64,000 bases of DNA from Thermoproteota archaeon (GTDB lineage: Archaea > Korarchaeota > Korarchaeia > Korarchaeales > Korarchaeaceae). The notes under the pieces are model-generated. The model was not told the origin of the DNA. It saw only the letters and a program-made list of their open reading frames with translations, and searched no databases. The position numbers were made by a program, and so were the translations under genes. Positions 1-14,899 of the stretch are shown in pieces. The stretch spans positions 1-64,000 of the forward strand of contig JAOZFH010000026.1 in the NCBI GenBank assembly GCA_027491415.1, in the 5' to 3' direction. The first letter of the stretch is position 1. Each line of letters opens with the position of its first letter.

Positions 1-1
1 C

Positions 2-2074
2 CGGGCGGTGGAGGCGCTCGCCGAGAGGGTCGGGATGGTCAGGGGCGCCGACGGCAGGTGGACCTTCGAGGGCAGGCCGGTCCTCCTGGTGGTGGCCTTC
101 AACGACGAAACCCTGCCGGACAGGGTCAGCCCAATGTACGACGAGTCCTCTAGGTGGATCCACAGGCTGGCCGTCTTCGACCCCCAAGACAGGGGGGAGG
201 ACCTGGCCGAGACCGTCAAGGGGCTTCTCAGGAGGCACGGCTTCGAGGTCAACGACTGGCGCGCCGGTTACGGCGGGCCCCTGAGGTCCACGCCCAGCTC
301 CCCGCACGTGCTCGTCCAGGCCATACCCCCCGGCTACCTGGTGGCCCCCGACTACATGTGGATGGGCTGGCTCTACTCCTACGACCCCCTCCCCTGGGCC
401 GACCGGGCCGACAGGTTCCTCAACCTCAGCAGGATATGGGAGCCCGTTTTCGGGCTGATCGAGGGCGTCGACTACGACGGGACCCCCTGCTCCGACCTCG
501 AGTGCACGGCCAGGCTCGCGGCTGACGTGGTGCTCAGGGGGGTGGAGGAGGGGTGGCCCAGGTGCTTCCTGTTCGAGGAGTACGACTACGTGCCGTACAG
601 CTCCGAGAGGGTGAGCTTCACCCACCTGGGGGTCGTCTACGGGCCCGTGGACCCGCTCGCCCTGATGACCGCCAGGACCCCCACGGGGACGCTCGCGGTC
701 GCCGTGCCGGAGGACGCCACCCTGTCGCCAGGCTCCCGGATCCCGGGCCTCTACCCCGGGTCGGGCCTCATACCCAACTTCGGGACCTTCGAGATGTCCC
801 AGTACGCCAAGTTCCCGCCGATCCACGAGTTCAGGGTGAGCCCCTTCTTCGCCTACAACGGCTGGGTGGGCTGGCTGGTGCACCAGCTCACGGTCTTCCA
901 GCTGGCCGTGGCCCACCCCACTCTCCTGGTCAGGGTCCCGATACCCGGGGTCGACTGGGCCGTGGCCAGGGGGTACAGGGGGCTGGGCTACACGGTGGAC
1001 GTCAGCTACCAGGGAGACCTGGGGATAAGCGCAAGGGAGGTCGAGGGGACCCTCGAGGCGCCCGTCGACCTGACGTCCTGGGACCCGATATCCCACTCTC
1101 CAATCGACGCCGAGGACTCCGGCCTGGCCAGCCTGGTGGAGATCAGGCTGCCCAACCTCAGCTACGGGTTCAGGAGCCTGGGGGAGGAGGACCTGATCTA
1201 CTGGATGCCTCAGCTCGTCGAGGAGGGCAGAGTCGTAATGGAGAATGAGAAACCTAGGTGGAGCCCCAGGGCCTGGACCCCGACCTGCTGGCTCTGGCTG
1301 CCGAGCGACAACGTTGCTGGGTGGAGCGTAGAAGGAGACAGGGTTCTTATAGGCCTCAAGGAGGCCGGGTGGCATAGAAGAGAACTTCTGGCGCACCTGC
1401 TCCCACCTCCCAATCCCGTGGCGGCCGCTTCCACGCTGGGCCAAGCCATGCCCATCTTCGGCCTGCCCTGGGAGCTTGAGGAGGCTGCGAGCAGAGTATC
1501 CGAGGGAGAGGACTACCCGACTGTAAACCTACTCGACCCGGAGTGGGCTCGGAAGATAGCCAGCGAACTCGCAAAGATGGCCAAGGAGAAATACGTCCCG
1601 CCCCAGCTGGAGGGCCTCGTCTCCCCAGGAGAGGCCGCCGAGCGCTACGTCGAGCTGGCCAGGAGGATACACGACCAGGGGCACGCCGTGATAAGCTGCG
1701 GGCCCTTCCGCGTGGAGGCCATCCTGGCCCAGGGTATCCTCATAGTCAGGAACGAGGAGTGGCCAGGCTGGAGCGGCCTGGAGGAGTGGCTGAGCATGGA
1801 CTTGGGGGACCTCTTCGCCGACTCGGGCTGGGAGCCCTGGGCCCCGTCCATACTGGAGGGCGCCCCCCGGCAAGGGGGATCCGCGCAACCCCGGCTCAAT
1901 CAGACCCCCTCCCCCGGTGGGGGGAATCGGACGCAGGCCGAGGGGACTACCCAGACACAGCCCGAGACGGGACCGAGGATTGGGGTGAGGTCCTGGCCGC
2001 TGCTGGCTGTCGGCCTGGCTGGCCTTGTCCTGAGCTTGGCCCTGGCCATCTACTGGGGCAGGAGAAGCGCGTAG
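2..2074 (+). CDS. ABC transporter solute-binding protein-like, C-terminal part (5' truncated by window edge)
   Basis: About 690 residues are visible and the frame is open to the left edge, so the N-terminus and any signal peptide lie outside the window. A GTG at base 8 is open but need not be the start. The sequence resembles the large archaeal family 5 (peptide/oligosaccharide) solute-binding proteins: Trp/Tyr-rich, with a late segment reading ISCGPFRVEAI that fits the family's GPF/GPY substrate-cleft motif. Near the end comes a low-complexity Pro/Gly/Thr/Gln linker (about residues 625-660), then one hydrophobic helix and a short basic tail (WGRRSA). This is the C-terminal anchor layout seen in archaeal binding proteins. 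Substrate cannot be read from sequence. It converges on the surface-protein gene, with 19 bases between the two stops. The family call is a motif-level judgement. Confidence 0.55.
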   Translation, partial: RAVEALAERVGMVRGADGRWTFEGRPVLLVVAFNDETLPDRVSPMYDESSRWIHRLAVFDPQDRGEDLAETVKGLLRRHGFEVNDWRAGYGGPLRSTPSSPHVLVQAIPPGYLVAPDYMWMGWLYSYDPLPWADRADRFLNLSRIWEPVFGLIEGVDYDGTPCSDLECTARLAADVVLRGVEEGWPRCFLFEEYDYVPYSSERVSFTHLGVVYGPVDPLALMTARTPTGTLAVAVPEDATLSPGSRIPGLYPGSGLIPNFGTFEMSQYAKFPPIHEFRVSPFFAYNGWVGWLVHQLTVFQLAVAHPTLLVRVPIPGVDWAVARGYRGLGYTVDVSYQGDLGISAREVEGTLEAPVDLTSWDPISHSPIDAEDSGLASLVEIRLPNLSYGFRSLGEEDLIYWMPQLVEEGRVVMENEKPRWSPRAWTPTCWLWLPSDNVAGWSVEGDRVLIGLKEAGWHRRELLAHLLPPPNPVAAASTLGQAMPIFGLPWELEEAASRVSEGEDYPTVNLLDPEWARKIASELAKMAKEKYVPPQLEGLVSPGEAAERYVELARRIHDQGHAVISCGPFRVEAILAQGILIVRNEEWPGWSGLEEWLSMDLGDLFADSGWEPWAPSILEGAPRQGGSAQPRLNQTPSPGGGNRTQAEGTTQTQPETGPRIGVRSWPLLAVGLAGLVLSLALAIYWGRRSA

Positions 2075-2093
2075 AGAATCCTTCAGGTTAACG

Positions 2094-4642
2094 CTACTTT
2101 GGCGCTCCATACACCGTATCGGAGTCGGTGTCCCTGTCCCCCCACGTCGGGACCTCGCTGCTGCCGGCCAGGGCCTCCATCCACCCCTCATAGTACCCGC
2201 GCCAGTTCACGGGGATCTCCAGGTTCACGTAGACGCATGTCCCCGGCCCGCCTGGCCCCTCGTCCCTCCCGGTCCTTATCGGCTGTCCGGGCGGCGGCGC
2301 GAGCTTTCCGAAGACCCTGACCCACGTCGCCGGATCCTCGTCCCAGCCAGCGTTGTAGCCGTAGACCGTCACGTTGCGGTCGTTCTCCACCTGCGTTTTG
2401 GCGGACACGGGACCCGGCTCCACGAAGAAGCTCGTGGTGAGCCACGGGTACGTCACCGCCATCCAGTCCCCCGCGGGCTCCCCGTAGGGTATGTCGAAAC
2501 TCAGCGCGTACAGCGCGTAGACGTACGTGGCGCCGCCGTACGTCCTGCGCTCGAAGCCGACCGGCCCGGACGGCCTGCCCTCGGCGACCACCCGCGAGGG
2601 GCTCGCGACCCTCATGACCCAGTCCTCTGACTCCACCTCCCGCCTGCAGACGTAGCAGGCGTCCTCCTCCCCCTCCCCGGGGCCGTCGACGCAGTAGGCG
2701 AAGTAGTAGGTGCCAGACCCTCCCTTGTGCAGGTCCCCGGTGACCCGGTCGTACACGCACACCGGGCCGGTGGGGCAGTCGAAGTAGAAGTACTCGTCGC
2801 CCCACCCGTTCCTCCTCACGGTAACGCTCCTGGACTCGCTCCCGTAGTCCGTGACGACCCTCACCGAGTGGGTCCCGGGGCTGGTCGGGACGCTCAGGTC
2901 GCTGCCCCTGCCAACCCAGGACCCGTCCAGGTAGACGTCCCCCTCCAGGCTCTGGCCCGAGGAGCACCTCACGTGAACGTTTACGCCCTGGTCCCCCTGG
3001 CCCCCTCCGCCTCCACCCCCGCCCTGGCACCTGACGTAGAGCAGAGTCGAAGCCGAGGCTGAGGCCCCGTAGCCCATCGAGTCGTAGGCGTCCACCGCCA
3101 CGGAGCCCCTTAGCCAGTAGTCGCAGTCGGACATGCTGGCCACGCACCCGCTCCCGAAAGACCTCGACCAGGACCCTCCCGAGGGTTCGTCGGAGCCCGA
3201 GCCGCTCCTGCCGCTGGTTCCCGAGGCGCTCCAGGTCCACTCCGCCCTCTCAAGGTTCCCGTCGGGGTCGGAGGCGGCCATCGAGAAGGCCACGCACCTC
3301 CCCGGGCACCCGCACCCCAGCCAGCCGCTCTCGGCTCTGGCCGAGGCGGACACCACGGGGGCGTCGTTGAGCGTGAAGGTGTCGGAGTCCACCAGCTCCA
3401 GCCCTCCCCCCGTCACCGCCACCCCCACCACGGTCCACTCCCCTCCCAGGCCGTCCACGTAGACCTTGGAGGGATCCGTCTCCCTCACCGGGTTACCCTG
3501 GCGGTCCCTCTCGAGCTGCCTCCACATCACGACGCACTCCGCCGAGCACCTGTACCTCCTCAGCCAATCGCCGCCCGGGATCCTCTCGCAGTCGAAGTCC
3601 CTCAGCTCCACCTGCACGCTGTCCGGGTCCACGTCGGGGTTCCTCAGGAGCTCCTCCACGACGGGCTCGGCCCTCGAGCTGCACTCGCTCTCGAGCCTTG
3701 AGTTACACGAGTGGCAGTTCCCGGACCTGGCCCGGACGGTCCCGAGGCTCCGCTCCCTGTCCTCCCACCTGTAGAGGGATCCGGGGGGAGTCACCTCCGC
3801 GACTACGTCAGCCCAGCTCCCCGTGTGGTTCAGGGTGACCCCGTACTCCTTCCACAGGGACCCGGAGGGCGCGTAGATCCTCAGGGTGACGTTCCTCTCG
3901 CTGCTGTGGATCAAGACGTTGAAAGCCTGGAGCCTCCCCACCACGTCCTCCAGGACCTCGACCTCTATGAAGGGCCGCTCCCCTCCGGATTCAACGCCCA
4001 TCACCAGCGAGCTGTCGCTCCCACCGCTGGCCGACGCGGTGAGGTTTGAGGCGAGGCCCTCGCACGTCACGTTGACCGTCACGGTGACCGTCGCGGACTC
4101 CATGTACCCCAGCGTTACCCGGGAGGGGCTGACCGACGAGCCGTATCCGCAGGCCAGGTCCCCGGCGGACAGGTATATCACGCCGGCCTCCCCGGCGTTT
4201 ATCAGGGTGAACTGGACCGACCTGACCCCCCCGACCTCCGCGCTCTCGTTCTCAGGGACGAGCACGGGGATCGGTCCATGGATCGGGGGGCCGCCACGAC
4301 CGTAGTCGCGAGCCAGCTCGAGCCCTCCGTCACGTTGAAGCTTATGGAGACCACCGAGCCCCCGGCCGCGTCGCTGGCCGAGACCGAGTAGGTAAGCCCG
4401 AGCCCCACCGCCGCCAGCTCCTCCCTGGCCCTCTCCATCTCCGCCGAGCACATGGCCTCGGCCGTCCCGGCGTCCCATTGCGCCGCGACCTGGGCCACGG
4501 ACTCAGCCCTCCTGAGCACGGAGTCGAATGCCGAGTATACGTCCGTGGGGGCGGAGATCTCCACGGGCTGGGCGAGGAAGACGGCTCCAACTGCGAGGGC
4601 CAGCGCGACGAGGAATACGGCAGCCAGCGCGACCGAAGACAT
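2094..4642 (-). pseudogene. Large secreted or surface-anchored protein with PKD-like and PEGA-like domains, frameshifted
   Basis: An ATG at 4642 opens a frame with an N-terminal hydrophobic helix (MSSVALAAVFLVALALAVG, pilin or signal-anchor like) and about 118 sensible residues. The protein sense then moves to another frame at a C6 run (4285-4290) and continues for about 730 residues to the TAG at 2094-2096. One extra C would restore a single protein of about 850 aa. The second part is rich in Ser, Thr, Gly and Asn-X-Ser/Thr sites. It has a PKD-like segment (ASDPDGNLERAEW), an eight-Gly linker, a PEGA-like segment (VYLDGSWVGRGSDL) and several Cys pairs, all typical of an exported glycoprotein. 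The gene lies downstream of the Cys-rich locus in the same direction. The break may be a sequencing error, a decayed gene or a slippery phase switch. Confidence 0.6.
4285..4290 (-). other. Homopolymer frameshift site (C6 on coding strand)
   Basis: The upstream frame reads GTG GCG GCC CCC CGA and runs into nonsense, while the downstream frame reads GGC CCC CCG ATC and continues as good protein. A run of seven C instead of six joins the frames as ...VVAAP then PIHGPIPV. This is the only place where the two halves of the surface-protein gene meet. Confidence 0.6.
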
Positions 4643-4707
4643 TCCCGGCGGCGCCGCCCGGGTAGACGTGAAAAAGTGTTCGCGCAGCCCGCGGACGGGG
4701 AGAACTG

Positions 4708-5189
4708 TTAGCCGCTATCAGTTAACGCGCACGAGGAGAGCCGAGCAGCCAGAGCCCTCCCGCCTCCGAACGGGGGCTCTTCACTCGCGATGAGGGCCTC
4801 ACCCCACACTAAGAAAGCAACCGCGAAACAGTAGTCGTAGACCCACCGCCGGTCAGGCCATGCAGGCGCAGGAGTCAGATAGACGGCAGCGGCGGCGATG
4901 GCCATGAGGAGAGAGTAGCTGCTGTCTTGGGGGTTGCTCCCCTGAAGACGGCGACGGCGACCTGATAGAAGAGCAAGGTAGCGAGGGCGAGGAGATCGTT
5001 GCCAAAGATCAATGAGGCTCCTTCGACCCTCTCCGCGCCGGAGATTAGCCAGGTTGGTGGGAAGAAGTAGGTAACAAAGAGAAAGGCGAGGAGCCACGCC
5101 TCTGGGGGGCCCAGTCTCGAGATCCAGCTTCTACTTTGTCGGCCTCTCTCAGACTTCACCAGCGCTCGCAGTGACACCTGTAGCTCCAC
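4708..5189 (-). pseudogene. Multi-pass membrane protein, paralog of the upstream gene, frameshifted
   Basis: A GTG at 5189 starts a frame with two hydrophobic helices (LLAFLFVTYFF; LALATLLFYQVAVAVFRG). Good sequence then moves to another frame at the C5 run near 4931-4935 and continues as SNPQDSSYSLLMAIAAAAVYLT, ending at 4708. The joined product of about 160 aa aligns with the neighbouring membrane protein: LLFYQVAVAVFRG against LLSYQVVVALRRR, then WVYDYCFAVAFLVWGEALIASEE against GFYWLIAYYFPLCLLAWAEWLIREG. Both also begin a conserved R-x-GP-x-E segment. It overlaps the end of the upstream gene by 41 bases. Function is unknown; as part of this locus, a role in export, maturation or immunity is an inference. 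The frame break may be a base-calling error. Confidence 0.5.
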
Positions 5190-5781
5190 CCCTCAACGCA
5201 GCATTAGGGGCCTCGACGTACCCCCACACCCGTACGGATGCTCCCCTCAGCAGCAGAACCGAATCCATCGCGACGACCGACAGCGAGGCCAATCCTAGGG
5301 CGGATGTGGTGATCGCGAGGTAGGAGGGGACGGCAGCCTCGGCTAGGCCCAGAGCCGCATGATAGAGCAGAGGTCCCCCGATGAGTGCGAAGGACAGTGA
5401 GACCAGCGGGATGAGGGTGAACCTCCTACCCTCCCGGATCAGCCACTCGGCCCAGGCCAATAGGCACAGTGGAAAGTAGTAGGCGATGAGCCAGTAAAAT
5501 CCCACGCACGCCGCTGGGCCGGAGAGGAGGGCCAAGAAAAGCAGGACCCCCGTGAGGAGCGGGTGTATCAGGCTCCAACCACTCAACCTCCTCCTCAGGG
5601 CGACGACAACCTGGTAGGAGAGCAGGACGGCTAGTATAACTGAAGGTGGGTTCAGTCTCGCGGAAATCTGAGACACTAGCCCCAGCAGGCTTCGGCCTTG
5701 GACGCAGTCGAGGCCCAAGAGAACCCCACCTAGGAGAAGTTCAAAGGGGCCAAACCTCTTTCTTCTCAATTCACTCCCCAC
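5149..5781 (-). CDS. Multi-pass membrane protein of the Cys-rich locus
   Basis: 210 residues, mostly hydrophobic, with about five or six predicted helices and Arg-rich loops (LRRRLSGW, WLIREGRR). No catalytic motif is recognised. The start is 16 bases after the stop of the Cys-rich secreted protein, so the two are almost certainly co-transcribed. The next gene is a diverged paralog of this one, which suggests tandem duplication. Immunity or processing membrane proteins often accompany precursor peptides, and that is the working guess here. The sequence alone shows only membrane topology and paralogy. Confidence 0.6.
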   Translation of the reverse strand: MGSELRRKRFGPFELLLGGVLLGLDCVQGRSLLGLVSQISARLNPPSVILAVLLSYQVVVALRRRLSGWSLIHPLLTGVLLFLALLSGPAACVGFYWLIAYYFPLCLLAWAEWLIREGRRFTLIPLVSLSFALIGGPLLYHAALGLAEAAVPSYLAITTSALGLASLSVVAMDSVLLLRGASVRVWGYVEAPNAALRGGATGVTASAGEV

Positions 5782-5797
5782 CCGCCAATTATGGTGA

Positions 5798-6670
5798 TCA
5801 CCAATGAGAACAATGGCATCGGTAGCTCCAACCGCCTGTGCAACAATACGAGCAGGAGCTAAGGCCAGCCGCGCACGTCATGCATCCTCCACAGGCTGCC
5901 CAATTCCCCAGTAAGCAAGCCAAACACACGATAGAGCATCCTATGTTTCTAGCCCCGCACCTTATCAAGCACGAGTCGTCCCAGTCGGTGCAGTACCTGC
6001 TGCAAACCCCGTAGTACCCCGGCGGGCAGTAGGGGTCGCAGTCCTCGTCCCTCTGGCAGGATATGTAGTCCGGCCTATATACGTTGGTGGGTCCCACGAC
6101 CGACTTGGTGAGAACCGGAGCGGGCGGACGCTGAGGATCCTGAAGGAGCCGAGCCAATCCCGGCAAGAGGATTAGCCTTCCCTCGTAGATGTAGGCCAGG
6201 TGGAGGAGCTCACCCCCCTCGGGCTCCCAGAGCAGCACCTCCCCTCTCCTGGTGGGGTTCTCTTCGCCCTCTATGGTCACGCCCACTATGGCAATGGGGA
6301 ACTCGGGGATTCCTCCCTTGGCCAAGGCGTGCCTGACGCCCGGGGCTCCGTAAGTCGCTATCAGCAGCCGCAACTCCCCGGAGGGAGACATGAACCTGAT
6401 CATCGAGGCATTGAGCAGCGTTGGAAGTCCAATGGCGCTGGTTAACATCTCCAGTTCTGAGGACAGACCGGCTCCAAGCAGCCCCGGAAGTTCGGTAGAC
6501 GAGACTTCAAATCCTCCGAGGTACCTCAGGTCGCCTCCGCCCCCCGCCCTGACCGCGCAACAGCATCCGCCACCCGTCTGGGTGGGCGAGGCTAACGCCG
6601 AACTGGGGGTGAGGATCATAGCCACGAGAGACGACAGGATCACGAGGCTGATGAGCTTTTTGCTCATCAT
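5798..6670 (-). CDS. Secreted Cys-rich precursor-like protein (halocin C8-like layout)
   Basis: 290 residues. A signal peptide (MMSKKLISLVILSSLVAMIL..SALA) is followed by a short Gly/Cys stretch with three Cys in a row. A middle domain of about 150 residues has no recognised motif (GEVLLWEPEGGELLHLAYIYEG is abridged from it). The C-terminal region of about 90 residues contains 18 Cys, in two parts: a disulfide-knot-like CQRDEDCDPYCPPGYYG and a hydrophobic part with GCSIVCLACLLGNW and GLSSCSYCC. The layout of signal, 150-200 residue middle and Cys-rich hydrophobic C-terminus, and the total length, match the known halocin C8 preproprotein (283 aa, immunity part plus 76-aa peptide). That resemblance is architectural, not a demonstrated homology. 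The ATG pair at 6670 follows a G6 Shine-Dalgarno run. Two membrane-protein genes follow in the same operon. Confidence 0.6.
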   Translation of the reverse strand: MMSKKLISLVILSSLVAMILTPSSALASPTQTGGGCCCAVRAGGGGDLRYLGGFEVSSTELPGLLGAGLSSELEMLTSAIGLPTLLNASMIRFMSPSGELRLLIATYGAPGVRHALAKGGIPEFPIAIVGVTIEGEENPTRRGEVLLWEPEGGELLHLAYIYEGRLILLPGLARLLQDPQRPPAPVLTKSVVGPTNVYRPDYISCQRDEDCDPYCPPGYYGVCSRYCTDWDDSCLIRCGARNIGCSIVCLACLLGNWAACGGCMTCAAGLSSCSYCCTGGWSYRCHCSHW

Positions 6671-6705
6671 CAGCCCCCCATTAAAGTGAGTTATTTTTCC
6701 TAACT

Positions 6706-6751
6706 ACACCTGTAATATGCATTTTAATATAAATGTATTTGTTACAGGTGT
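6706..6751 (-). promoter_or_regulatory. Inverted repeat flanking the TATA box of the Cys-rich operon
   Basis: ACACCTGTAA (6706-6715) and TTACAGGTGT (6742-6751) are perfect 10-bp inverted copies. The 26-bp spacer is AT-rich and contains the minus-strand TATA-like CATTTATATTAA, placed about 50 bases upstream of the ATG pair at 6670. A dyad straddling a TATA box is a common arrangement for archaeal repressors that block TBP/TFB. The protein that binds it is not identified. Confidence 0.55.
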
Positions 6752-6759
6752 TATATAAC
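6750..6759. promoter_or_regulatory. Palindromic TATA-like element GTTATATAAC
   Basis: A perfect 10-bp palindrome abuts the right arm of the 6706-6751 inverted repeat. It could be a TATA box for a plus-strand transcript starting near 6780, or part of the operator. No protein gene begins downstream on the plus strand. Confidence 0.3.
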
Positions 6760-7262
6760 GCTATATTTGCTAAATCAACCGATTGATCACCATCTTCCCC
6801 CTTAAACGTGGATTATTCGAAATAGGGGTCCCTCGAGCTGGAACGAACCGGCGGGCGCGGAGACACGGTTGGGCAGGCCACAACTGAGAGCGAAGGGCCC
6901 CCATGTTAGGTGAGGGGGAGCGGAGCGTAGGGGAACTCCCTGATCTAGGCGAGTGAGGAGGCTGAGCTGTCTTATTGAGAGCGCGCAGCCTCTGGTAGGG
7001 AACCGGGGACATTGGCCTTACTCCAAGCGCCGGGTTGGGCCTGAGCGACTGGGGAACCCTACCTCCGCGTCAACTCGCTGGCTGGGGTCTCCAGGGTGGG
7101 GCCTCTCTGAGTTCGGGAATTGACAGCAGGGCCGACTGAGGGATAAGGAACTCTCCGAATAGTAGGTATGGTTAAAGTCGTTGCGAAGGTGCCGACCGGC
7201 CTCTCTTCCCGCGGACCGCGGTGACGTGGTATAAGGAGGTGGCCGGAGAAGATGCTGAACTG
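6760..7262. other. Long intergenic region without a recognisable gene
   Basis: About 500 bases separate the Cys-rich operon promoter from the transcription factor S stop codon. I find no coding sequence with a sensible protein and no match to tRNA, 5S, RNase P or SRP consensus motifs. It contains a short perfect stem (GAGGCTG at 6958-6964 with CAGCCTC at 6986-6992) and a Sac II-like doublet, CCGCGGACCGCGG, near 7208-7220. A structured non-coding RNA or decayed gene is possible. Confidence 0.35.
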
Positions 7263-7589
7263 TCAGGAGTACTCCCGCCACGTGTACTTGCACTTGACGC
7301 AGGTGTAGATCCTGGTGGGGGGCTCGTCCGCCGACCTGGTCTGCTCTATCCTCAGGTAGGCCTCGGTGTGCCCGCACTTCGGGCACACGGCCTTGACCTT
7401 GGGGAGGGAGATGAGTTCCTCTGGGTTCTCTATCACGACGACCTTGTTCTCGGGGCTGGCGGCGACCCTCCTGGTTATGTTGAGGGCCCTCCCCTCGGTC
7501 CCCTCGTACCCGCACCTAGGGCACTTGAACACGACCTTGCCGTCCTCGACCTTGGGAGACATCAGGGCCCCGCATTTCGGGCAGATCAA
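7263..7589 (-). CDS. tfs: Transcription factor S (TFIIS/RPB9-like cleavage factor)
   Basis: 108 residues, the usual length. The N-terminal zinc ribbon (CPKCG..CPRCGY) docks on RNA polymerase, and the C-terminal ribbon (CPKCG..CVKCKYTWREY) carries the acidic DE pair in RSADEPPTRIYTC that stimulates transcript cleavage in backtracked polymerase. All eight zinc-ligand cysteines are present. An ATG start is used. The neighbour to the left is the long intergenic region; a divergent NYN-domain gene lies to the right. Confidence 0.95.
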   Translation of the reverse strand: MICPKCGALMSPKVEDGKVVFKCPRCGYEGTEGRALNITRRVAASPENKVVVIENPEELISLPKVKAVCPKCGHTEAYLRIEQTRSADEPPTRIYTCVKCKYTWREYS

Positions 7590-7686
7590 TCCTATCCCTC
7601 GGTTCGGTTCTCCGGGCGTGGCGATTAATCTAGTTTGCGCGGGCGACGGGCCAACCGTTAATTAGGTCCCGGGAAGGGGTGGTCCG

Positions 7687-8193
7687 ATGAGCCACCGCCG
7701 CGTCTCAGTCCCCAGAGTTCCGCTCAGACTTCCGTCGAGGCACAGGAGGAGGCGGGTGGCCGTCATAGTGGACGGCCCCAACATGCTCAGGAAGGAGCTG
7801 GGTGTGGACCTCGAGGAAATCTCGAAGGTGGCCTCTGATCTGGGAAACGTCAGGGTTAAGGTGGTCGTGCTGGACAGAAAGGCTCCAGAGAAGCTTGTGG
7901 AGGCCGTTATGAATGCGGGCTACAAGGCGCTGATCTCCCCGGGCAAGCCGGAGGTCGACTTCACGATCGCCGCCATGGACACGATACACGACGACAAGAT
8001 AGACGCCCTGGCCCTCGCAACGAGGTCGGCGGCCTACCTCCCGCTGGTTTACCGGGCGAAGGAGGCTGGAAAGGAGGTTGCGGTGATCGGGGCCGAGCCG
8101 GGCTTCAGCGTGGCGCTCAGGAAGGCGGCCGACGCCTCATTCACCGTGGGATCTCCTTCTCCTTCCTACGAGGGCCCTGAGGAAGAAGAGTGA
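7687..8193 (+). CDS. NYN-domain (PIN-like) putative ribonuclease
   Basis: 168 residues. After a basic N-terminal tail (RLPSRHRRRR), the core VAVIVDGPNMLR carries the first metal-binding Asp of the NYN/LabA fold. Further acidic positions follow in KPEVDFTIAAMD and DDKIDALALATRS, with the C-terminal strand KEVAVIGAEPGFS. Such archaeal proteins are predicted metal-dependent RNases; the substrate is unknown. The ATG at 7687 follows GGGGTGGTCCG. The last 57 bases overlap the convergent DUF373 gene. Confidence 0.8.
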   Translation: MSHRRVSVPRVPLRLPSRHRRRRVAVIVDGPNMLRKELGVDLEEISKVASDLGNVRVKVVVLDRKAPEKLVEAVMNAGYKALISPGKPEVDFTIAAMDTIHDDKIDALALATRSAAYLPLVYRAKEAGKEVAVIGAEPGFSVALRKAADASFTVGSPSPSYEGPEEEE

Positions 8194-9234
8194 GGCTATG
8201 GAGAACAGGAGGGCAGCCGCGAGCCCCAGGGCGAGCACCACCGCCCCCACCCTGCCGAGCAGGTACTCGCCGGCATAGTAGGCCATCAGCCAGGCAGAGA
8301 AGGAGACCGCCACCGCCAGCAGCTTCTCCACGTAGTCCCCCCGCTTCGTGGCGTACGACTCTATCGCGCTGCCGAGGAAGGCCGCTGACGTGAATAGGAA
8401 GAAGAGGTGGGACGTGTTCCTCAGCACGGTGCCGATCACCACGCCCGTCGGGTTGCTTCCTATCATGCTCGAGGCCGTCCTGTAGGCCTGAAAGGCGCTG
8501 ACGGCTATGCCAGTGAGCCCGAAGAACAGCGAGAAGATGCCGGTGGCTCCGCCGAAGTACTTGACGACCCTCACCAGTTTGCTGGTTATCGAGAAGCCCT
8601 TCTCCATCAGGAGGACCCCGAGGAAGAGTATGAACCCGGTGGCCAGGTACCTCTGGAGGTTCAGCAGGGAGAGTATGCCAGCCAGCGCCAGGAGCGCGCC
8701 GGGTATGCCCAAGGCGTAGGCCCTGGCCTCCGGGCTCTCGAGCAGCCTCTCTATGTACCTCCTTATGAGGAGGTACGTCTCCTCCAGCTGCGGGCTCTGC
8801 TGAACCACAATGCGCCTGACGCTTATCGTCGGCACGAACTTGAGGAGGAGGGGGATAACCCTCTCGTCGTCGACGCCGTCAGAGACCAGGATGGCGTGAT
8901 CCGGCCGGAACGTGGAGGTCACCTCGGCCATCTGCCTGATGATCTCCTGGTCCGCGATCAGCTCGCTGGTGTGGTGCCCGGTTATGGTGGCCACCAGCAC
9001 CTCGGCCTCCGGCAGCTCCCGCTTTACCTCTTCGGCCACCTTGACGGCCCCGAATATGGCGTTCGCGTCGGCCTCCTGAGGGTCGGCGAGCGCGAGCCTC
9101 GTCGCGGCCTCGGTGTTGGCCTCGACGCCGACCACAGGGCCCCTCAGGCCGGTCTTCAGGCCGAGATCGTCATCTCGGTCGACGCACAAGATGAGCACTC
9201 GTCGTGGAGTTCCCTCGGGGCCCCTGGTGACCAA
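8137..9234 (-). CDS. DUF373 family membrane protein
   Basis: 365 residues. The N-terminal soluble domain of about 170 residues starts VLILCVDRDDDLGLKTG and includes DGVDDERVIPLL, characteristic of the archaeal DUF373 family. The C-terminal half has about six hydrophobic helices. Function is unknown; the acidic N-terminal motifs suggest metal or nucleotide binding. A minus-strand TATA-like element (TTTTTAAT around 9262-9270) sits about 30 bases upstream, so the leader is very short. The 3' end overlaps the NYN gene. Confidence 0.85.
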   Translation of the reverse strand: MVTRGPEGTPRRVLILCVDRDDDLGLKTGLRGPVVGVEANTEAATRLALADPQEADANAIFGAVKVAEEVKRELPEAEVLVATITGHHTSELIADQEIIRQMAEVTSTFRPDHAILVSDGVDDERVIPLLLKFVPTISVRRIVVQQSPQLEETYLLIRRYIERLLESPEARAYALGIPGALLALAGILSLLNLQRYLATGFILFLGVLLMEKGFSITSKLVRVVKYFGGATGIFSLFFGLTGIAVSAFQAYRTASSMIGSNPTGVVIGTVLRNTSHLFFLFTSAAFLGSAIESYATKRGDYVEKLLAVAVSFSAWLMAYYAGEYLLGRVGAVVLALGLAAALLFSIASLFFLRALVGRRRRSHGE

Positions 9235-9288
9235 TCCTATCGCGTGCCCCCGGGCGCCCGGGAATTAAAAATGTGGGTTGAGGCGAGG

Positions 9289-10203
9289 CTAGCTGGAGGA
9301 CGCCGGGCTCCCCTCGAGGAGGCCCGCCTCCATGAGGGCCCTGAGCTCCTCCAGTGTCAGCTTCTCGCCGGCCTTGTACTTCTCCAGGGCCTCCTGGGCG
9401 AGCCTGGTCTTGATCTGCTCCTCCGTCAGCCTGGCGGCGGCCTGCATGTCCTCGTAGGCCTTCTTGAGGAACTCCCTAGTCTGCGTTATCTGCTGGAACA
9501 GCTCGTCCATCCGGGCCTTCATCTCGTCAACCTTGCCGCTCTTCTCCTCTATCTCCTTGCTGAGCTCGTCTATCTGAGGCCTTATCTCGTCGAGCTCCCT
9601 GATCAGCTCCGAGATCTCGCCGTTGATCTCCGAGATCTTAGCCTTGAGCTCCTTGATCTTCTCCCCGGTGTCCCTGATGAAGAACCTCCACCTTTCCGCC
9701 TCGGCCATGATCTCGATGTACCTCCTCTTGAGCTTCTTGGCCTCCATGAGAGTCTGGAGCTGGGCCTCCAAGTGGCTTATCCTCACCACCAGGTCCCTCT
9801 CCGCGTCCCTCGAGAGGGGCTGGGTCTCGATCCGCCTCTCCAGGGCCGCTATCCTCCTCCTCAGTACCCTCTCAGGGACACCGACCTCCGCCATGAGGCT
9901 CTCGTACCTGTTCTTTATCTCGGTAGCCTCCTTCTTGGCCTTTCGGTACTCCTCGATGACCTTCCTCCTCTCCTCAAAGAGCTTCTCGACCTCCTCCCTG
10001 ATCTTCTTTCTCTCCTCGATCAGCTCCCTTATCTTGGCCCTCTTGCTTCGCACCTGCTCGATGAGCTCCCTCCTCTTCTCCCTGAGGCCCTTCAGGTCCT
10101 CGATGATGGCCCTCCTCTCGTCCCGGATGGAGAGAAGCTTCGCTCTAAGGTCTTCAACCCTACGCCGGAGATCGTCAAGATCCTGCGCCTGTGCTGCTCC
10201 CAT
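9289..10203 (-). CDS. Archaeal coiled-coil protein (COG1340-like)
   Basis: 304 residues, almost entirely charged heptad-type coiled coil from about residue 8 to 280 (runs such as ELIEERKKIREEVEKLFEER). A C-terminal short domain contains YKAGEKLTLEELRALMEAG. This is the pattern of the uncharacterised archaeal coiled-coil family COG1340. The ATG at 10203 is preferred because GAGGAGGAGCT lies just upstream. An in-frame GTG at 10257 would add 18 unrelated residues, although a TATA-like element near 10290 would permit it. A structural or chromosome-associated role is guesswork. Confidence 0.75.
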   Translation of the reverse strand: MGAAQAQDLDDLRRRVEDLRAKLLSIRDERRAIIEDLKGLREKRRELIEQVRSKRAKIRELIEERKKIREEVEKLFEERRKVIEEYRKAKKEATEIKNRYESLMAEVGVPERVLRRRIAALERRIETQPLSRDAERDLVVRISHLEAQLQTLMEAKKLKRRYIEIMAEAERWRFFIRDTGEKIKELKAKISEINGEISELIRELDEIRPQIDELSKEIEEKSGKVDEMKARMDELFQQITQTREFLKKAYEDMQAAARLTEEQIKTRLAQEALEKYKAGEKLTLEELRALMEAGLLEGSPASSS

Positions 10204-10315
10204 GGGAGCTCCTCCTCTCTCAGCTGTTGCGTTGCCTGAAAGATCGCTCGCCACCAAGCGTGCTCGGATCGGGCCGGTGTTAGGAGATTAAAAAGGTTCG
10301 CCGCCGGGGGCCGAC

Positions 10316-10525
10316 TCACACCGACACGAGGATTATGTCGGCGCAGGCCCTTATGGCTGAGTAGGGGATCGTCCTCCTCTCCTTGCCCTTCTCGTCCAGC
10401 GCCACGATTATGGCGGCGAGACGACCCCCGGCGTCGTCGAACACTATGTCGTCCACCGTGCCTATGAACTTGCCGTCGGTGGTGTAGACCTCCAAGTCGT
10501 ATAGCTCCGACACCCTCCTCGCCAA
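10316..10525 (-). CDS. PRC-barrel domain protein
   Basis: 69 residues forming one PRC barrel: LYDLEVYTTDGKFIGTVDDIVFD followed by GGRLAAIIVALDEKG, abridged, and RRTIPYSAIRACADIILV. Stand-alone archaeal PRC-barrel proteins are thought to be adaptor or RNA-associated proteins; the partner is unknown. The start is a TTG after GGGTGAT, five bases after the stop of the acyl-CoA synthetase beta subunit, so the two form an operon. Confidence 0.85.
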   Translation of the reverse strand: MARRVSELYDLEVYTTDGKFIGTVDDIVFDDAGGRLAAIIVALDEKGKERRTIPYSAIRACADIILVSV

Positions 10526-10529
10526 GGCA

Positions 10530-11225
10530 TCACCCCAGTATGACCCTGGCGTCCACCACTTTAAGGCCGCTCGGGTAAGCCATAACGGGGTTGAGGTCCA
10601 TCTCCTTTATCTCGGGGTTCTCGACCCCTATCTGGCCCACCTTCACCAGCGCGTCTACGAGAGCCTTCTTGTCGACGGGCTCCATTCCCCTATAGCCCTC
10701 CAGGAGCTTTCTGCCCTTTATCTCGCTGATCATCTCCTCTGCGTCCCTCTCGGTCAGCGGCGCGACCCTGAAAGACACGTCCCTGAAGACCTCCACGAAC
10801 ACGCCTCCGAGACCGAACATGACGGTCGGGCCGAACTGCGGGTCCTTGATGAGGCCTATTATCACCTCGACGCCCGCCGGGGCGAACTCCTGGATGAGGA
10901 CACCCACGATCCTGGCATTCGGGACCTTCGACTTGACGGACTCTATTATCTCCCTGTAGGCCCTCCTGACCTCCTCCTCCGTCTTCAGGTTCACCTTCAC
11001 GCCGCCCACGTCGCTCTTGTGCAGGACGTCTGGTGAGACTATCTTGAGGACGACCGGGAGGCCGATCTCCCTGGCGAACTGGACGGCCTCCTCCTCGGTC
11101 TTGGCGACCTTCACCCTGGTCACGGGGATACCGTAGTCGGCGATGAGGGCCTTGGCCTCTGGCTCGAGTAGGACCTTCCTGCCCTCAGAGATGGCTCCCT
11201 GGATTATCTCCCTCCCCTTAGGCAT
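10530..11225 (-). CDS. acdB: ADP-forming acetate/acyl-CoA ligase, beta (ATP-grasp) subunit
   Basis: 231 residues, the usual size of the separate beta subunit. The ATP-grasp fold is visible: GIPVTRVKVAKTEEEAV, LPVVLKIVSPDVLHKSDVGG with the conserved Lys and His-Lys-Ser, GVEVIIGLIKDPQFGP, the Gly-rich VMFGLGGVFVEVFRD and MDLNPVMAYP near the end. With an alpha subunit it converts acyl-CoA, ADP and phosphate to acid, CoA and ATP, the main ATP-forming step of archaeal fermentation. A candidate alpha subunit lies at 62298-63689. The PRC-barrel gene follows directly. Confidence 0.9.
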   Translation of the reverse strand: MPKGREIIQGAISEGRKVLLEPEAKALIADYGIPVTRVKVAKTEEEAVQFAREIGLPVVLKIVSPDVLHKSDVGGVKVNLKTEEEVRRAYREIIESVKSKVPNARIVGVLIQEFAPAGVEVIIGLIKDPQFGPTVMFGLGGVFVEVFRDVSFRVAPLTERDAEEMISEIKGRKLLEGYRGMEPVDKKALVDALVKVGQIGVENPEIKEMDLNPVMAYPSGLKVVDARVILG

Positions 11226-11285
11226 GGACGCACGTCACCGCGACAAGCTTTGGCCCAATCCGTTAAAAGATTATCCCACGGAGTC

Positions 11286-12563
11286 TCAGCGCCTCCTGGA
11301 CCTCCTGAGAATCCTCTCTATGGACTTAGAGACTCTCCTAGCCTTTTTAGCCTCCTTCGGGGGGGCCTTGCTGAGTTTTCTCTTCGAGGGCTCCTCGCGC
11401 GCTCCTCCCGCCTCCAGCACCTCCTTGGGTATGTAGTACATGCCCGCCGCGTCCTTGGAGAGGTATCCGGCGGCGACTAGAGTCTCCAACCTCCTGTACT
11501 CCTCGTCCACCGGAACCTCCGTCGCGAGCGCCAGCTTCTCGAGGGTCGTTGGACCGCCGCCGAAGTCCCTCACCAGCGTTTCAACCTCCAGCCTGTACCT
11601 CTCCGGCACCCTGTCTAGGAAGTCCAAGAGGGGCTTCTCGGGCTCCATCACGTCGTCCACAATGACCTCGGTGACGGTAGTCCTCCTCAAGGCCACGGCG
11701 GCCTCCAGGGCCTGGGAGAGTATCTCCATCAGCCTCTTTGGCACCCCACGTGCGTACCTGTTGGCGGTCTCCACCGCCTCGGGCGTCAACGGATCGAGGT
11801 CGAACCTCGGCTCCCTCACCCTGAAGGCCGACACCCTCTTGCCCACTATCCGGATGGCCTCGTCGTCGGTCAGCGGCTGGAGCTCCACCTTGTCGTGCAT
11901 CCTCGATAATAGGGCGGAGTGCCTCTTCCTCAGGGCGTTGAAGGCGTCAGGGCTCATTGTCATGACGACCATTATCCCCTCTGGCATCACGGAAACGAGC
12001 TCCCTGATGCTCTCGAAGAAGAAGAAGGACCACCTGTCCCCGCTCAGGAGCATGTTGTGGGCGTCGTCAAGGAGGAGAGCGACTGGCCTTATTGGGTCGA
12101 GGTAGTCCACCAGAGCCTCCCCGACGCTGGCGGGGGATCTCCTCAGCCTCTCCAGCTCCTCCTCGCTCAGCTCGGATATCCCGAGGACTAGCTTCTTCAG
12201 CGCCTTCATCATGCCCCTGCTCCGCTCGTAAGTGAAGCTCAGGAGGTCGTCTATGGCGTCGGGCCCCTCCAGCGGGCTGACCTCGTAGAGTATGTACTCC
12301 CCCTCGGACTCCCAGAAGTCGTGGGCCAGGACGTTGAGCCGCGTCGTCCGGCCCATCCCGGGCTCCCCCACCACCGCTATGAACGCCGACCCGGTGCCAG
12401 CCAGCGTGTCGCTCGCCATCGCTTGGAGGCTCGAGTCCTGAGAGAGGGGGACGAACATCTGCCTCGTCAGTTCAGGGTCAAAGTCTGCTAGGGGCGTGAA
12501 CGGGTTCCTGGAGAGGCCGAGGATCACTTCGAGGCTCCTCTCCCTTCCAGCGAGGCCCGCCAA
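11286..12563 (-). CDS. AAA+ ATPase with C-terminal winged-helix region
   Basis: 425 residues. Walker A is VGEPGMGRTTRL, with Arg-Thr-Thr in place of the usual Lys-Thr. Walker B is VALLLDDAHN, and sensor-1-like VVMTMSPDAF follows. A lid with ANRYARGVPKRLMEILSQAL resembles Orc1/Cdc6 and ExeA-type AAA+ proteins. Then comes a winged-helix-like stretch (TLEKLALATEVPVDEEYRRLETLVAAGYL is abridged) and a very basic tail. The missing Walker A lysine is unusual and could impair ATP hydrolysis. The TTG start lies 23 bases from the dyad that contains its own TATA box, so the transcript is probably leaderless. Replication, DNA or chaperone roles are all possible. Confidence 0.65.
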   Translation of the reverse strand: MAGLAGRERSLEVILGLSRNPFTPLADFDPELTRQMFVPLSQDSSLQAMASDTLAGTGSAFIAVVGEPGMGRTTRLNVLAHDFWESEGEYILYEVSPLEGPDAIDDLLSFTYERSRGMMKALKKLVLGISELSEEELERLRRSPASVGEALVDYLDPIRPVALLLDDAHNMLLSGDRWSFFFFESIRELVSVMPEGIMVVMTMSPDAFNALRKRHSALLSRMHDKVELQPLTDDEAIRIVGKRVSAFRVREPRFDLDPLTPEAVETANRYARGVPKRLMEILSQALEAAVALRRTTVTEVIVDDVMEPEKPLLDFLDRVPERYRLEVETLVRDFGGGPTTLEKLALATEVPVDEEYRRLETLVAAGYLSKDAAGMYYIPKEVLEAGGAREEPSKRKLSKAPPKEAKKARRVSKSIERILRRSRRR

Positions 12564-12585
12564 TCAATCCACCGCGGAAGGGGCG

Positions 12586-12610
12586 CCCGGGCCTATATAA
12601 TAGGCCCGGG
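12586..12610. promoter_or_regulatory. Perfect 11-bp dyad centred on a TATA box between the AAA+ and EF-2 genes
   Basis: CCCGGGCCTAT (12586-12596) and ATAGGCCCGGG (12600-12610) are perfect inverted copies around ATA, giving CCTATATAATAGG in the middle. The TATA box fits the minus-strand AAA+ gene, whose start would then be leaderless. It may also serve EF-2, although a second T-rich TATA-like element at 12629-12636 fits EF-2 better. Symmetry this exact suggests an operator. Confidence 0.55.
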
Positions 12611-12679
12611 TCTCCCGGCGGCGGGGGCATTCTTTTTTAACGCAGGCGCGCGGGCTGGCCTTGGAAGGGTGAAAAGGCG

Positions 12680-14899
12680 TTGCAGAAGTACAAGAAGATC
12701 GTAGAGCACCTCCAGGGCCTGATGATGGACCCCCGGAACATAAAGAACATTGGGATCATCGCCCACATAGACCACGGCAAGACGACGCTCTCTGACAACC
12801 TGCTCTCCTCAGCCGGCATGATCAGCACGAGGATGGCGGGCGAGATGAGGTGGCTCGACTACCACGAGCTAGAGCAGGCCAGGGGAATCACGATAAAGGC
12901 CGCGAACGTCTCTCTGTACTACAAGTACGAGGGGAGGGAGTTTGCCATCAACATGGTGGACACCCCTGGCCACATAGACTTCACGGGGCACGTCACCAGG
13001 TCGCTGAGGGTGATAGACGGCGCCATAGTCGTGGTCGACGCGGTGGAGGAGGTCATGGTCCAGACCGAGACCGTGACCAGGCAGGCCTTGGAGGAGAGGG
13101 TCCGGCCGCTCCTGTTCATCAACAAGGTCGACAGGCTCATCAAGGAGCTGAGGCTGACCCCCCAGGAGACCCAGAAGAAGATCGCCAGGATCATCACCCA
13201 GTTCAACGACCTCATCGAGGCCTACGCGGAGCCGGAGTTCAGGGACAAGTGGAAGGTGAGGTGGGAGAACGACACCGTGGCCCTCGGCTCCGGGCTCCAC
13301 GGCTGGGGCCTCAACGCGTCCGTCTCCAAGAGAAAGGGCGTCACCTTCGGCGAGATACTGAAGGCCTACGCAGAGGACGACCACGTCAGGCTCAAGCACG
13401 AACTCCCGGTGCACGAGGCCATCCTGGAGATGGTCGTGAAGCACGTCCCCAGCCCGATAGAGGCCCAGCAGTACAGAATCGACAGGATATGGAAGGATAA
13501 GCACGACGAGGAGATCCTCGAAGCCCTGAAGAAGTGCGACCCCAACGGGCCGCTAATCATAGGCGTCAACGCCGCCAAGCTCGACCCGCACGCTGGCGTG
13601 GTGGTCACCGGGAGGGTGTTCAGCGGGACCGTCGGAGAGGGCCAGGAGGTCTACCTGCTCAACGCCAAGAAGACCCAGAGGATACAGCAGACCGCCATCT
13701 ACATGGGCCCGTACAGGGTCAGGATGGAGCGGATCCCGGCTGGGAACATAGCCGCCCTGCTTGGCGTGGACGCCGCCAGCTCCGGCGAGACCCTGGTCGT
13801 GCCATCGATCAGGGGGAGGGTCCAAGAGGGCTTTGAGGCCATGCACTACGTCACTGAGCCGGTCGTCACCGTGGCCATAGAGGCCAAGAGGCCGTCCGAC
13901 CTGCCCAAGCTGGTGGACGCCCTCAGGAAGCTCACGCTCCAAGACCCGAACCTGATCCTGATCCACAACACCGAGACGGGCGAGATCCTCCTGAAGGGTA
14001 CCGGCGCACTCCACCTGGAGGTGTCGCTCTACGACATCAAGAAGTCCGGCCTCGAGTTCGAGGTCAGCGAGCCAACCGTCGTCTACAGGGAGAGCATGAA
14101 GTCGTCTTCGCCAGAGCCCGTGCTGGCCAAGTCCCCCAACAAGCTCAACAGGCTCTGGGTCACCGCCGAGAGGCTGCCGGAGAAGGTCATCGAGCTCATC
14201 AAGGAGAAGAGGATCCACGAGAGGATGGACAGCAGGTCCATCGCCAAGATCCTGAGGGAGGAGGGCGGCATGGAGACCGACGACGCCAGGAACGTCTGGA
14301 AGATCGACGAGGAGAACTACAACCTGTTCATCAACAGGACCGTCGGAGTCCAGAGGCTCGACGAGGTCAGGGAGATCCTGAAGCAGGGCTTCATGTGGGC
14401 CATGAAGGAGGGCCCGCTCGCCGGGGAGCCGTCCATGGGGCTCGTCATAAGGCTGGTCAACGCGATGATTCACGAGGATCCGGCCCACAGAGGTCCGGCC
14501 CAGCTGGTGCCAGCGATCAGGAGGGCGATATTCGGCGCCATGCTCAGCGACGACCCGGTCCTGCTGGAGCCAGTCTACGAGATCCAAGTCACCGTCCCTC
14601 CAGAGCTGATAGGGAGTGTAATAGGCCTCCTCTCGCAGAAGAGGGGCAAGGTCTCCGGGGTAGAGGAGAGGGGAAGGATCAGCGTGGTAAAGGGCTACAT
14701 ACCCGTCAGGGAGACCCTCGGCGACTTCAGCAACGAGATGAGGAGCGTCACCGGCGGAAGGGCCTTCTGGCAGACGAAGTTCTCCCACTGGGAACCCCTG
14801 CCGAAGTCCCTGATGGAGCAGGTGATCCTAGAGATCAGGAGAAGGAAGGGCATGAAGGAGGAGCTCCCGAGAGCGGAGGACTACATCGACCGACTGTGA
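12680..14899 (+). CDS. fusA: Translation elongation factor 2 (EF-2)
   Basis: 739 residues, full length. The GTPase domain is intact: AHIDHGKTT (G1), RGITIKAA (G2), DTPGH (G3) and INKVD (G4). Domains II-V follow, ending in KGMKEELPRAEDYIDRL. The domain IV loop HEDPAHRGPAQ keeps the His that is converted to diphthamide in archaea and eukaryotes. EF-2 translocates tRNA and mRNA on the ribosome with GTP hydrolysis. The start is a TTG (QKYKKIVEHL) after GAAGGGTG. It is divergent from the AAA+ gene across a region with two TATA-like elements. Confidence 0.97.
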   Translation: MQKYKKIVEHLQGLMMDPRNIKNIGIIAHIDHGKTTLSDNLLSSAGMISTRMAGEMRWLDYHELEQARGITIKAANVSLYYKYEGREFAINMVDTPGHIDFTGHVTRSLRVIDGAIVVVDAVEEVMVQTETVTRQALEERVRPLLFINKVDRLIKELRLTPQETQKKIARIITQFNDLIEAYAEPEFRDKWKVRWENDTVALGSGLHGWGLNASVSKRKGVTFGEILKAYAEDDHVRLKHELPVHEAILEMVVKHVPSPIEAQQYRIDRIWKDKHDEEILEALKKCDPNGPLIIGVNAAKLDPHAGVVVTGRVFSGTVGEGQEVYLLNAKKTQRIQQTAIYMGPYRVRMERIPAGNIAALLGVDAASSGETLVVPSIRGRVQEGFEAMHYVTEPVVTVAIEAKRPSDLPKLVDALRKLTLQDPNLILIHNTETGEILLKGTGALHLEVSLYDIKKSGLEFEVSEPTVVYRESMKSSSPEPVLAKSPNKLNRLWVTAERLPEKVIELIKEKRIHERMDSRSIAKILREEGGMETDDARNVWKIDEENYNLFINRTVGVQRLDEVREILKQGFMWAMKEGPLAGEPSMGLVIRLVNAMIHEDPAHRGPAQLVPAIRRAIFGAMLSDDPVLLEPVYEIQVTVPPELIGSVIGLLSQKRGKVSGVEERGRISVVKGYIPVRETLGDFSNEMRSVTGGRAFWQTKFSHWEPLPKSLMEQVILEIRRRKGMKEELPRAEDYIDRL

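Follow-up and report, generated by a model that had tools for sequence, protein, structure and literature searches.

A korarchaeal locus with a candidate archaeocin-type precursor, a Cys-rich tail family shared with Thermococcales and a presumed membrane immunity protein

Does a short locus in a korarchaeal genome encode an antimicrobial of the archaeocin type, and is it a relative of halocin C8? The locus lies in the window, the whole stretch of 64,000 nucleotides analysed here (positions 1 to 64,000 of contig JAOZFH010000026.1, assembly GCA_027491415.1). From the sequence we regard it as probable that the locus encodes a precursor of archaeocin type, from which a disulfide-rich C-terminal peptide would be released, together with a separate membrane immunity protein. 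The computational observations behind this reading are an export signal, a conserved tail under selection, the gene order, the co-variation of tails and membrane proteins in Thermococcales, and a probable cassette duplication.

The precursor gene (5798-6670, minus strand) encodes 290 residues, comprising a signal peptide, a first (pro) part and a Cys-rich tail, as the original prediction had described. The signal peptide (residues 1-27; 6590-6670, minus strand), read by eye and from hydropathy, is of the Sec type, with an A-x-A before residue 28 (SALA followed by S; in full, MMSKKLISLVILSSLVAMILTPSSALA followed by SP), and no twin arginine was seen by eye in the N-terminus, which begins MMSKKLISLVILSS. 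The C-terminal 94 residues contain 18 Cys, and the two tail segments quoted in the original prediction, GCSIVCLACLLGNW and GLSSCSYCC, are both present there. Because Cys makes up only 0.24% of seven neighbouring proteins (7 of 2,938 residues), the richness of the tail in Cys is beyond chance (P about 1e-29). The tail proper, the presumed active peptide, comprises residues about 203-290 (5801-6064, minus strand). Comparison of the precursor with a 57%-identical paralogue on contig C46 of the same genome gives a dN/dS of 0.33, that is, purifying selection, and the tail is the more constrained part of the precursor between these two loci (70% identity and dN/dS 0.18, versus 51% and 0.43 for the first part).

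The AlphaFold model of the precursor (mean pLDDT 55) shows the tail as a helical hairpin between two short strands, at low confidence, and a disordered linker at about residues 170-218; both features are weakly supported. The structure prediction proposed originally thus yielded a model with a helical hairpin tail and no match among solved structures: Foldseek searches of the PDB with this model and with that of the membrane protein (mean pLDDT 61) returned nothing at E <= 0.001, and the same is true of the precursor model against viral structures. Pfam, NCBIfam, PHROGs, PADLOC and PDB sequence searches gave nothing of note. The fusellovirus toxin a291, which has a similar length, was dropped as a candidate relative because of its glucanase-like fold (PMC13431529). 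Upstream of the precursor, an AT-rich island (34% G+C versus 63% for the window) contains a TATA-box-like TTTATATT (6726-6733, minus strand) at a distance of 63-56 bases from the start codon. A TATA-like box is likewise found upstream of each of the other three complete precursors. The genes of the precursor locus have a lower GC3 (0.73 versus 0.91).

The presumed immunity protein, MP1 (210 residues; 5149-5781, minus strand), starts with GTG 16 bases past the stop codon of the precursor gene and contains some 5-6 hydrophobic TM helices, so that the predicted multi-pass membrane protein at this distance is indeed present; it is 69% identical to the second membrane protein of the C46 locus (C46_MP2). 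Of the two paralogous membrane genes that had been predicted, MP1 is intact, and the diverged copy, MP2 (4708-5189, minus strand), is frameshifted and truncated: it occupies two frames (4875-5189 and 4708-5097) with an early stop and aligns to MP1 in weak pieces only. MP2 is either a pseudogene or carries a sequence error. A precursor-tail remnant of 34 codons (CCVEGWSYRCHCERW-stop; 5159-5260, minus strand) overlaps MP1 at its 3' end, in a different frame, and scores 94 against the precursor tail, versus 47 for the next-scoring unrelated site of the 64 kb window. Since this remnant stands ahead of the broken MP2, a unit of tail plus membrane protein was probably duplicated and the copy then decayed, unless a sequencing error accounts for the frameshift.

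A large secreted Ig-like protein (2094-4642, minus strand) is a possible companion of the locus. Its gene runs over two overlapping frames, so this region of the window may carry more than one frameshift. The sole other copy in the genome (L007:1176-1769, minus strand) adjoins the paralogous precursor locus, and the two copies are 32% identical over their last 176 residues. Among the ORFs at 1-14000, viewed by eye and in some cases also scanned with Pfam, no modification enzyme of the lanthipeptide or modified-peptide kind was recognised, and no dedicated protease or exporter was identified near the precursor locus.

The C46 locus consists of the paralogous precursor, a membrane protein at 16 bases, and a second membrane protein. 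Among 29 genomes of the phylum, the precursor was found in three, namely the window's genome, G011 (two loci) and G022 (one locus, at a contig edge); one other genome of the window's genus is among the 26 without it. The search for the same gene order in related genomes bore out the original prediction, as a multi-pass membrane protein comes directly after the precursor in all five korarchaeal loci of these three genomes. A second paralogous membrane gene is present in four of the five; it is intact in C46 and at one of the two G011 loci, and the copies in the window and at the other G011 locus are broken. The patchy distribution (3/29 genomes), the paralogues, the decayed copies and the lower GC3 fit what is usual for conflict genes.

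Tail homology connects the window's genus with G011/G022 (score 169 versus a Cys-preserving shuffle maximum of 94), and no homology is detectable between their first parts or between their membrane proteins; a proposed homology between the first parts of the window precursor and of G011 was rejected on comparison. Homologous tails beside non-homologous membrane proteins argue against a strict pairing of tail and immunity gene, unless immunity genes have been replaced. Homologues of the G011-type membrane protein also occur alone: G007 and G003 have two each (L063 3847-4404, L065 3694-4245, L062 4080-4637 and L064 4146-4667; profile comparison, 98% probability), with no adjacent precursor and in genomes without a detectable one. 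A scan of genome contigs returned one korarchaeal MAG and a scan of viral contigs none; a phage search with the window precursor and a plasmid search with the Thermococcales relative L027 also returned none. Weak matches in G121 and G053 were set aside as chance or broken frames.

Two other elements accompany the paralogous locus on C46. A broken IS605 OrfB/TnpB-like gene (L007 1516-2856, minus strand) lies between the Ig-like fragment and the paralogous precursor, and thirteen copies of a 37-nt repeat with a spacing of 74-77 nt form a CRISPR-like array (L007 6021-6969) that begins about 500 bases past the locus and reaches the contig end.

The tail family extends to Thermococcales. A weak match in G055 proved to be a 252-residue precursor with a Cys-rich tail and an overlapping gene for a 124-residue membrane protein, and a tail alignment including it finds homologues in about 20 Thermococcales genomes. 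The carriers include what we take to be T. litoralis, T. sibiricus, P. horikoshii and P. yayanosii. To avoid circularity, an independent profile was built from the four korarchaeal tails alone and compared with 1,020 composition-matched decoys with shuffled tails. This profile scores L098 at 29.4, L080 at 26.9 and L075 at 24.5 bits, versus 7.1 bits for the best decoy; the weaker members L088 and L089 score under that decoy line. The hhalign comparison of korarchaeal with Thermococcales tails gives a probability of 98.4 and an E value of 9.5e-15. One candidate, L091, is a QueC-like enzyme and was excluded from the set.

In 19 Thermococcales loci, counted without the false match L091, a membrane ORF comes next, with at least 3 TM helices and 90 residues in 17 and with 2 TM helices in the other two. 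The background by the same rule is 1 of 50 window genes, 10 of 63 korarchaeal-locus genes (a set that includes the precursor loci themselves) and 5 of 32 Thermococcales flanking genes. Membrane partners are present beside every homologue, and the searches matched the precursor to no unrelated family; neither of the two outcomes named in advance as refuting the prediction was therefore seen. The original suggestion that such a system would be new in a thermophile was too strong, as proteins of the halocin C8 domain family TIGR04449 (halocin_C8_dom) occur in hyperthermophiles, followed in Thermococcus and other archaea by small membrane proteins, and the present tail family is common in Thermococcales.

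Eleven Thermococcales loci were compared for co-variation between the parts of the system. On average the first parts are 64% identical, the tails 47% and the membrane proteins 25%; the first half of the precursor is conserved and the tails are variable. The more alike two tails are, the more alike are their membrane proteins (r 0.84, Mantel p 0.0002; Spearman 0.52, p 0.0004), and no such relation holds for the first parts (r 0.05, p 0.35); the partial correlation of membrane protein and tail, given the first part, is 0.86. Close tail pairs supply part of this correlation: when four members of such pairs are dropped, the Spearman coefficient is 0.34 and the first-part correlation becomes negative. 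The cluster L081/L083/L088, with like tails and unlike membrane proteins, is an exception to the co-variation. T. sibiricus also has an orphan Cys-rich tail (L079, about 2348-2700) that is identical to the L080 tail at 33 of 53 positions, and the small membrane protein behind it is homologous to that of L080 (score 81, maximum of 2,000 shuffles 63).

The co-variation and the orphan cassette fit an effector and its cognate immunity protein. Because an exporter or maturation factor is expected to follow the shared first part, a membrane protein that tracks the tail disfavours such a role. The immunity part that had been placed inside the first half of the precursor found no support, as the co-variation points to the neighbouring membrane protein. 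A precursor with an adjacent, co-varying gene of immunity type is found in Thermococcales, and the corresponding gene order in Korarchaeota holds in five of five loci. Features of polymorphic toxin systems, namely a conserved N-terminal part, a variable C-terminal part, a co-varying neighbour and orphan cassettes of tail plus partner, are likewise present in the Thermococcales relatives; the window itself has the tail remnant and the broken MP2 only. The systems differ in that the effector here is a small Cys-rich peptide rather than an enzyme, and no large delivery protein is present.

The likeness to halocin C8, on which the original prediction had leaned, is one of layout. Halocin C8 has a 283-residue precursor, Tat export, the immunity peptide HalI and a 76-residue mature peptide (PMC11509114); it and the TIGR04449 proteins share with the window family an exported precursor of 240-350 residues with a Cys-rich C-terminal peptide, and TIGR04449 precursors in thermophiles are also followed by a short membrane-protein gene. 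On these grounds the window precursor might truly belong to the halocin C8 family as a diverged member, with a tail that has drifted past detection and a first part that serves as immunity domain. However, TIGR04449, which has a curated cut-off of 24 bits and recognises the control precursors L021, L032 and L035 at 37.6-46.7 bits, matches neither the window and paralogous precursors nor any korarchaeal or Thermococcales member of the tail family. The tail profile compared by hhalign with halocin C8-type tails gives probabilities of 0.1-0.4, which is chance, and alignments to 13 such tails stay within shuffle ranges. An apparent link between the first parts (30.1 versus a null maximum of 17.5) was due to the signal peptides and is lost when they are removed (15.7 versus 18.3). 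The first parts of undoubted TIGR04449 precursors from different groups do not match each other either, so the first part is uninformative. The modes of export differ as well, Tat in halocin C8 (PMC11509114) and Sec-type in the window precursor, and immunity lies in the first part of the halocin C8 precursor, whereas that of the window family appears to reside in a separate membrane protein. One protein brings the two families closer: L095 (G570) joins a halocin-C8-type first part (frameshifted, 68 of 90 residues identical to L038) to a tail that weakly matches the korarchaeal profile (9.7 bits, decoy maximum 7.1), and it is possibly a tail swap between halocin C8-type and korarchaeal-type families. 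Taken together, gene order, tail constraint and the Thermococcales co-variation support an archaeocin-type locus, as predicted, and the profile results do not support descent from halocin C8, which we consider unlikely.

A secreted disulfide-rich surface or structural protein (an adhesin, an envelope protein, or a redox or metal protein), with the membrane proteins as anchor or export partner, would account for the Sec-type signal, the many disulfide-capable Cys and the constant membrane neighbour, and the large secreted Ig-like protein adjoins both loci of the window's genome. Nevertheless, the membrane protein tracks the tail, where an anchor or exporter would be expected to vary with the shared first part, and the search of 29 phylum genomes left 26 without a detected precursor, among them the only other genome of the genus. 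In Thermococcales, moreover, the conserved first part carries differing tails, and one tail cassette stands as an orphan. These points make a surface protein improbable. The co-variation would suit a ligand and receptor equally well, that is, a system of self/non-self recognition or signalling where the membrane protein would detect its cognate variable secreted peptide and nothing is killed. The VARTIG module of Thermococcales is comparable in this respect: the accessible part of its report describes a secreted variable protein followed by small membrane proteins, with a proposed role in conflict or recognition, but its proteins are large Ig-domain proteins (arCOG07710), and that part describes no Cys-rich peptide tail (PMC8416519). 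The membrane proteins of the present family are small, no sensor or signalling domain was recognised in them, and decayed cassettes and solo membrane proteins without a detectable precursor look more like immunity genes, so that recognition without killing appears very unlikely.

For the archaeocin-type reading, which we prefer, we infer killing activity, cleavage, target, immunity and disulfide stapling as follows. The signal peptide would export the precursor, and the Cys-rich tail of about 85-90 residues would be stapled by disulfides outside the cell, cut off within the disordered linker, at about residues 170-203, and released by a protease. The released tail would inhibit related archaea, probably at the membrane or envelope, and the membrane protein encoded just downstream would shield the producing cell against the tail that it makes. 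A duplicated cassette of tail plus membrane protein would have left behind the broken second copy and the tail remnant. Whether the korarchaeal and Thermococcales loci together form an undescribed polymorphic archaeocin family, unrelated in sequence to halocin C8, with a variable disulfide-rich peptide and a cognate small membrane immunity protein shuffled as cassettes, is in our judgement evenly balanced.

Sulfolobicins are protein antimicrobials from thermophilic TACK archaea. The proposed archaeocin would resemble them in this respect, with no sequence likeness claimed, and the widely cited archaeocins comprise only halocins and sulfolobicins (PMC10105419). No description of the korarchaeal locus was found in the literature searched, with Makarova et al. 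2019 (mBio), reportedly a survey of archaeocin candidates, standing outside the comparison; that survey may already cover a portion of the Thermococcales set. What is new here is an archaeocin-like architecture with an unrelated tail family and a separate, predicted membrane immunity protein. The effector and immunity candidates can be read from the sequence, so the family is directly testable. Genetic tools exist for Thermococcus kodakarensis, and the natural pairs of tail and membrane protein from T. litoralis, T. sibiricus and Pyrococcus horikoshii offer matched and mismatched combinations for immunity. Heat-stable disulfide-rich peptides would have practical interest.

Two sets of precursors with halocin C8-like tails were seen in passing. 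In G008, a genome of the same family as the window's, a 351-residue exported precursor (L013 334-2532) has a tail that is halocin C8-like but below the cut-off, and it is followed by a 300-residue protein with about 8 TM helices and then by an orphan 80-residue tail copy. In Thermococcales, the TIGR04449 precursors L031, L030 and L038-L041 have a nearly constant first part and different tails, and a different small membrane protein comes next in most of them; a second ORF in L031 joins a portion of the first part to another Cys-rich tail. Polymorphism in Thermococcus may also extend to the true halocin C8 domain.
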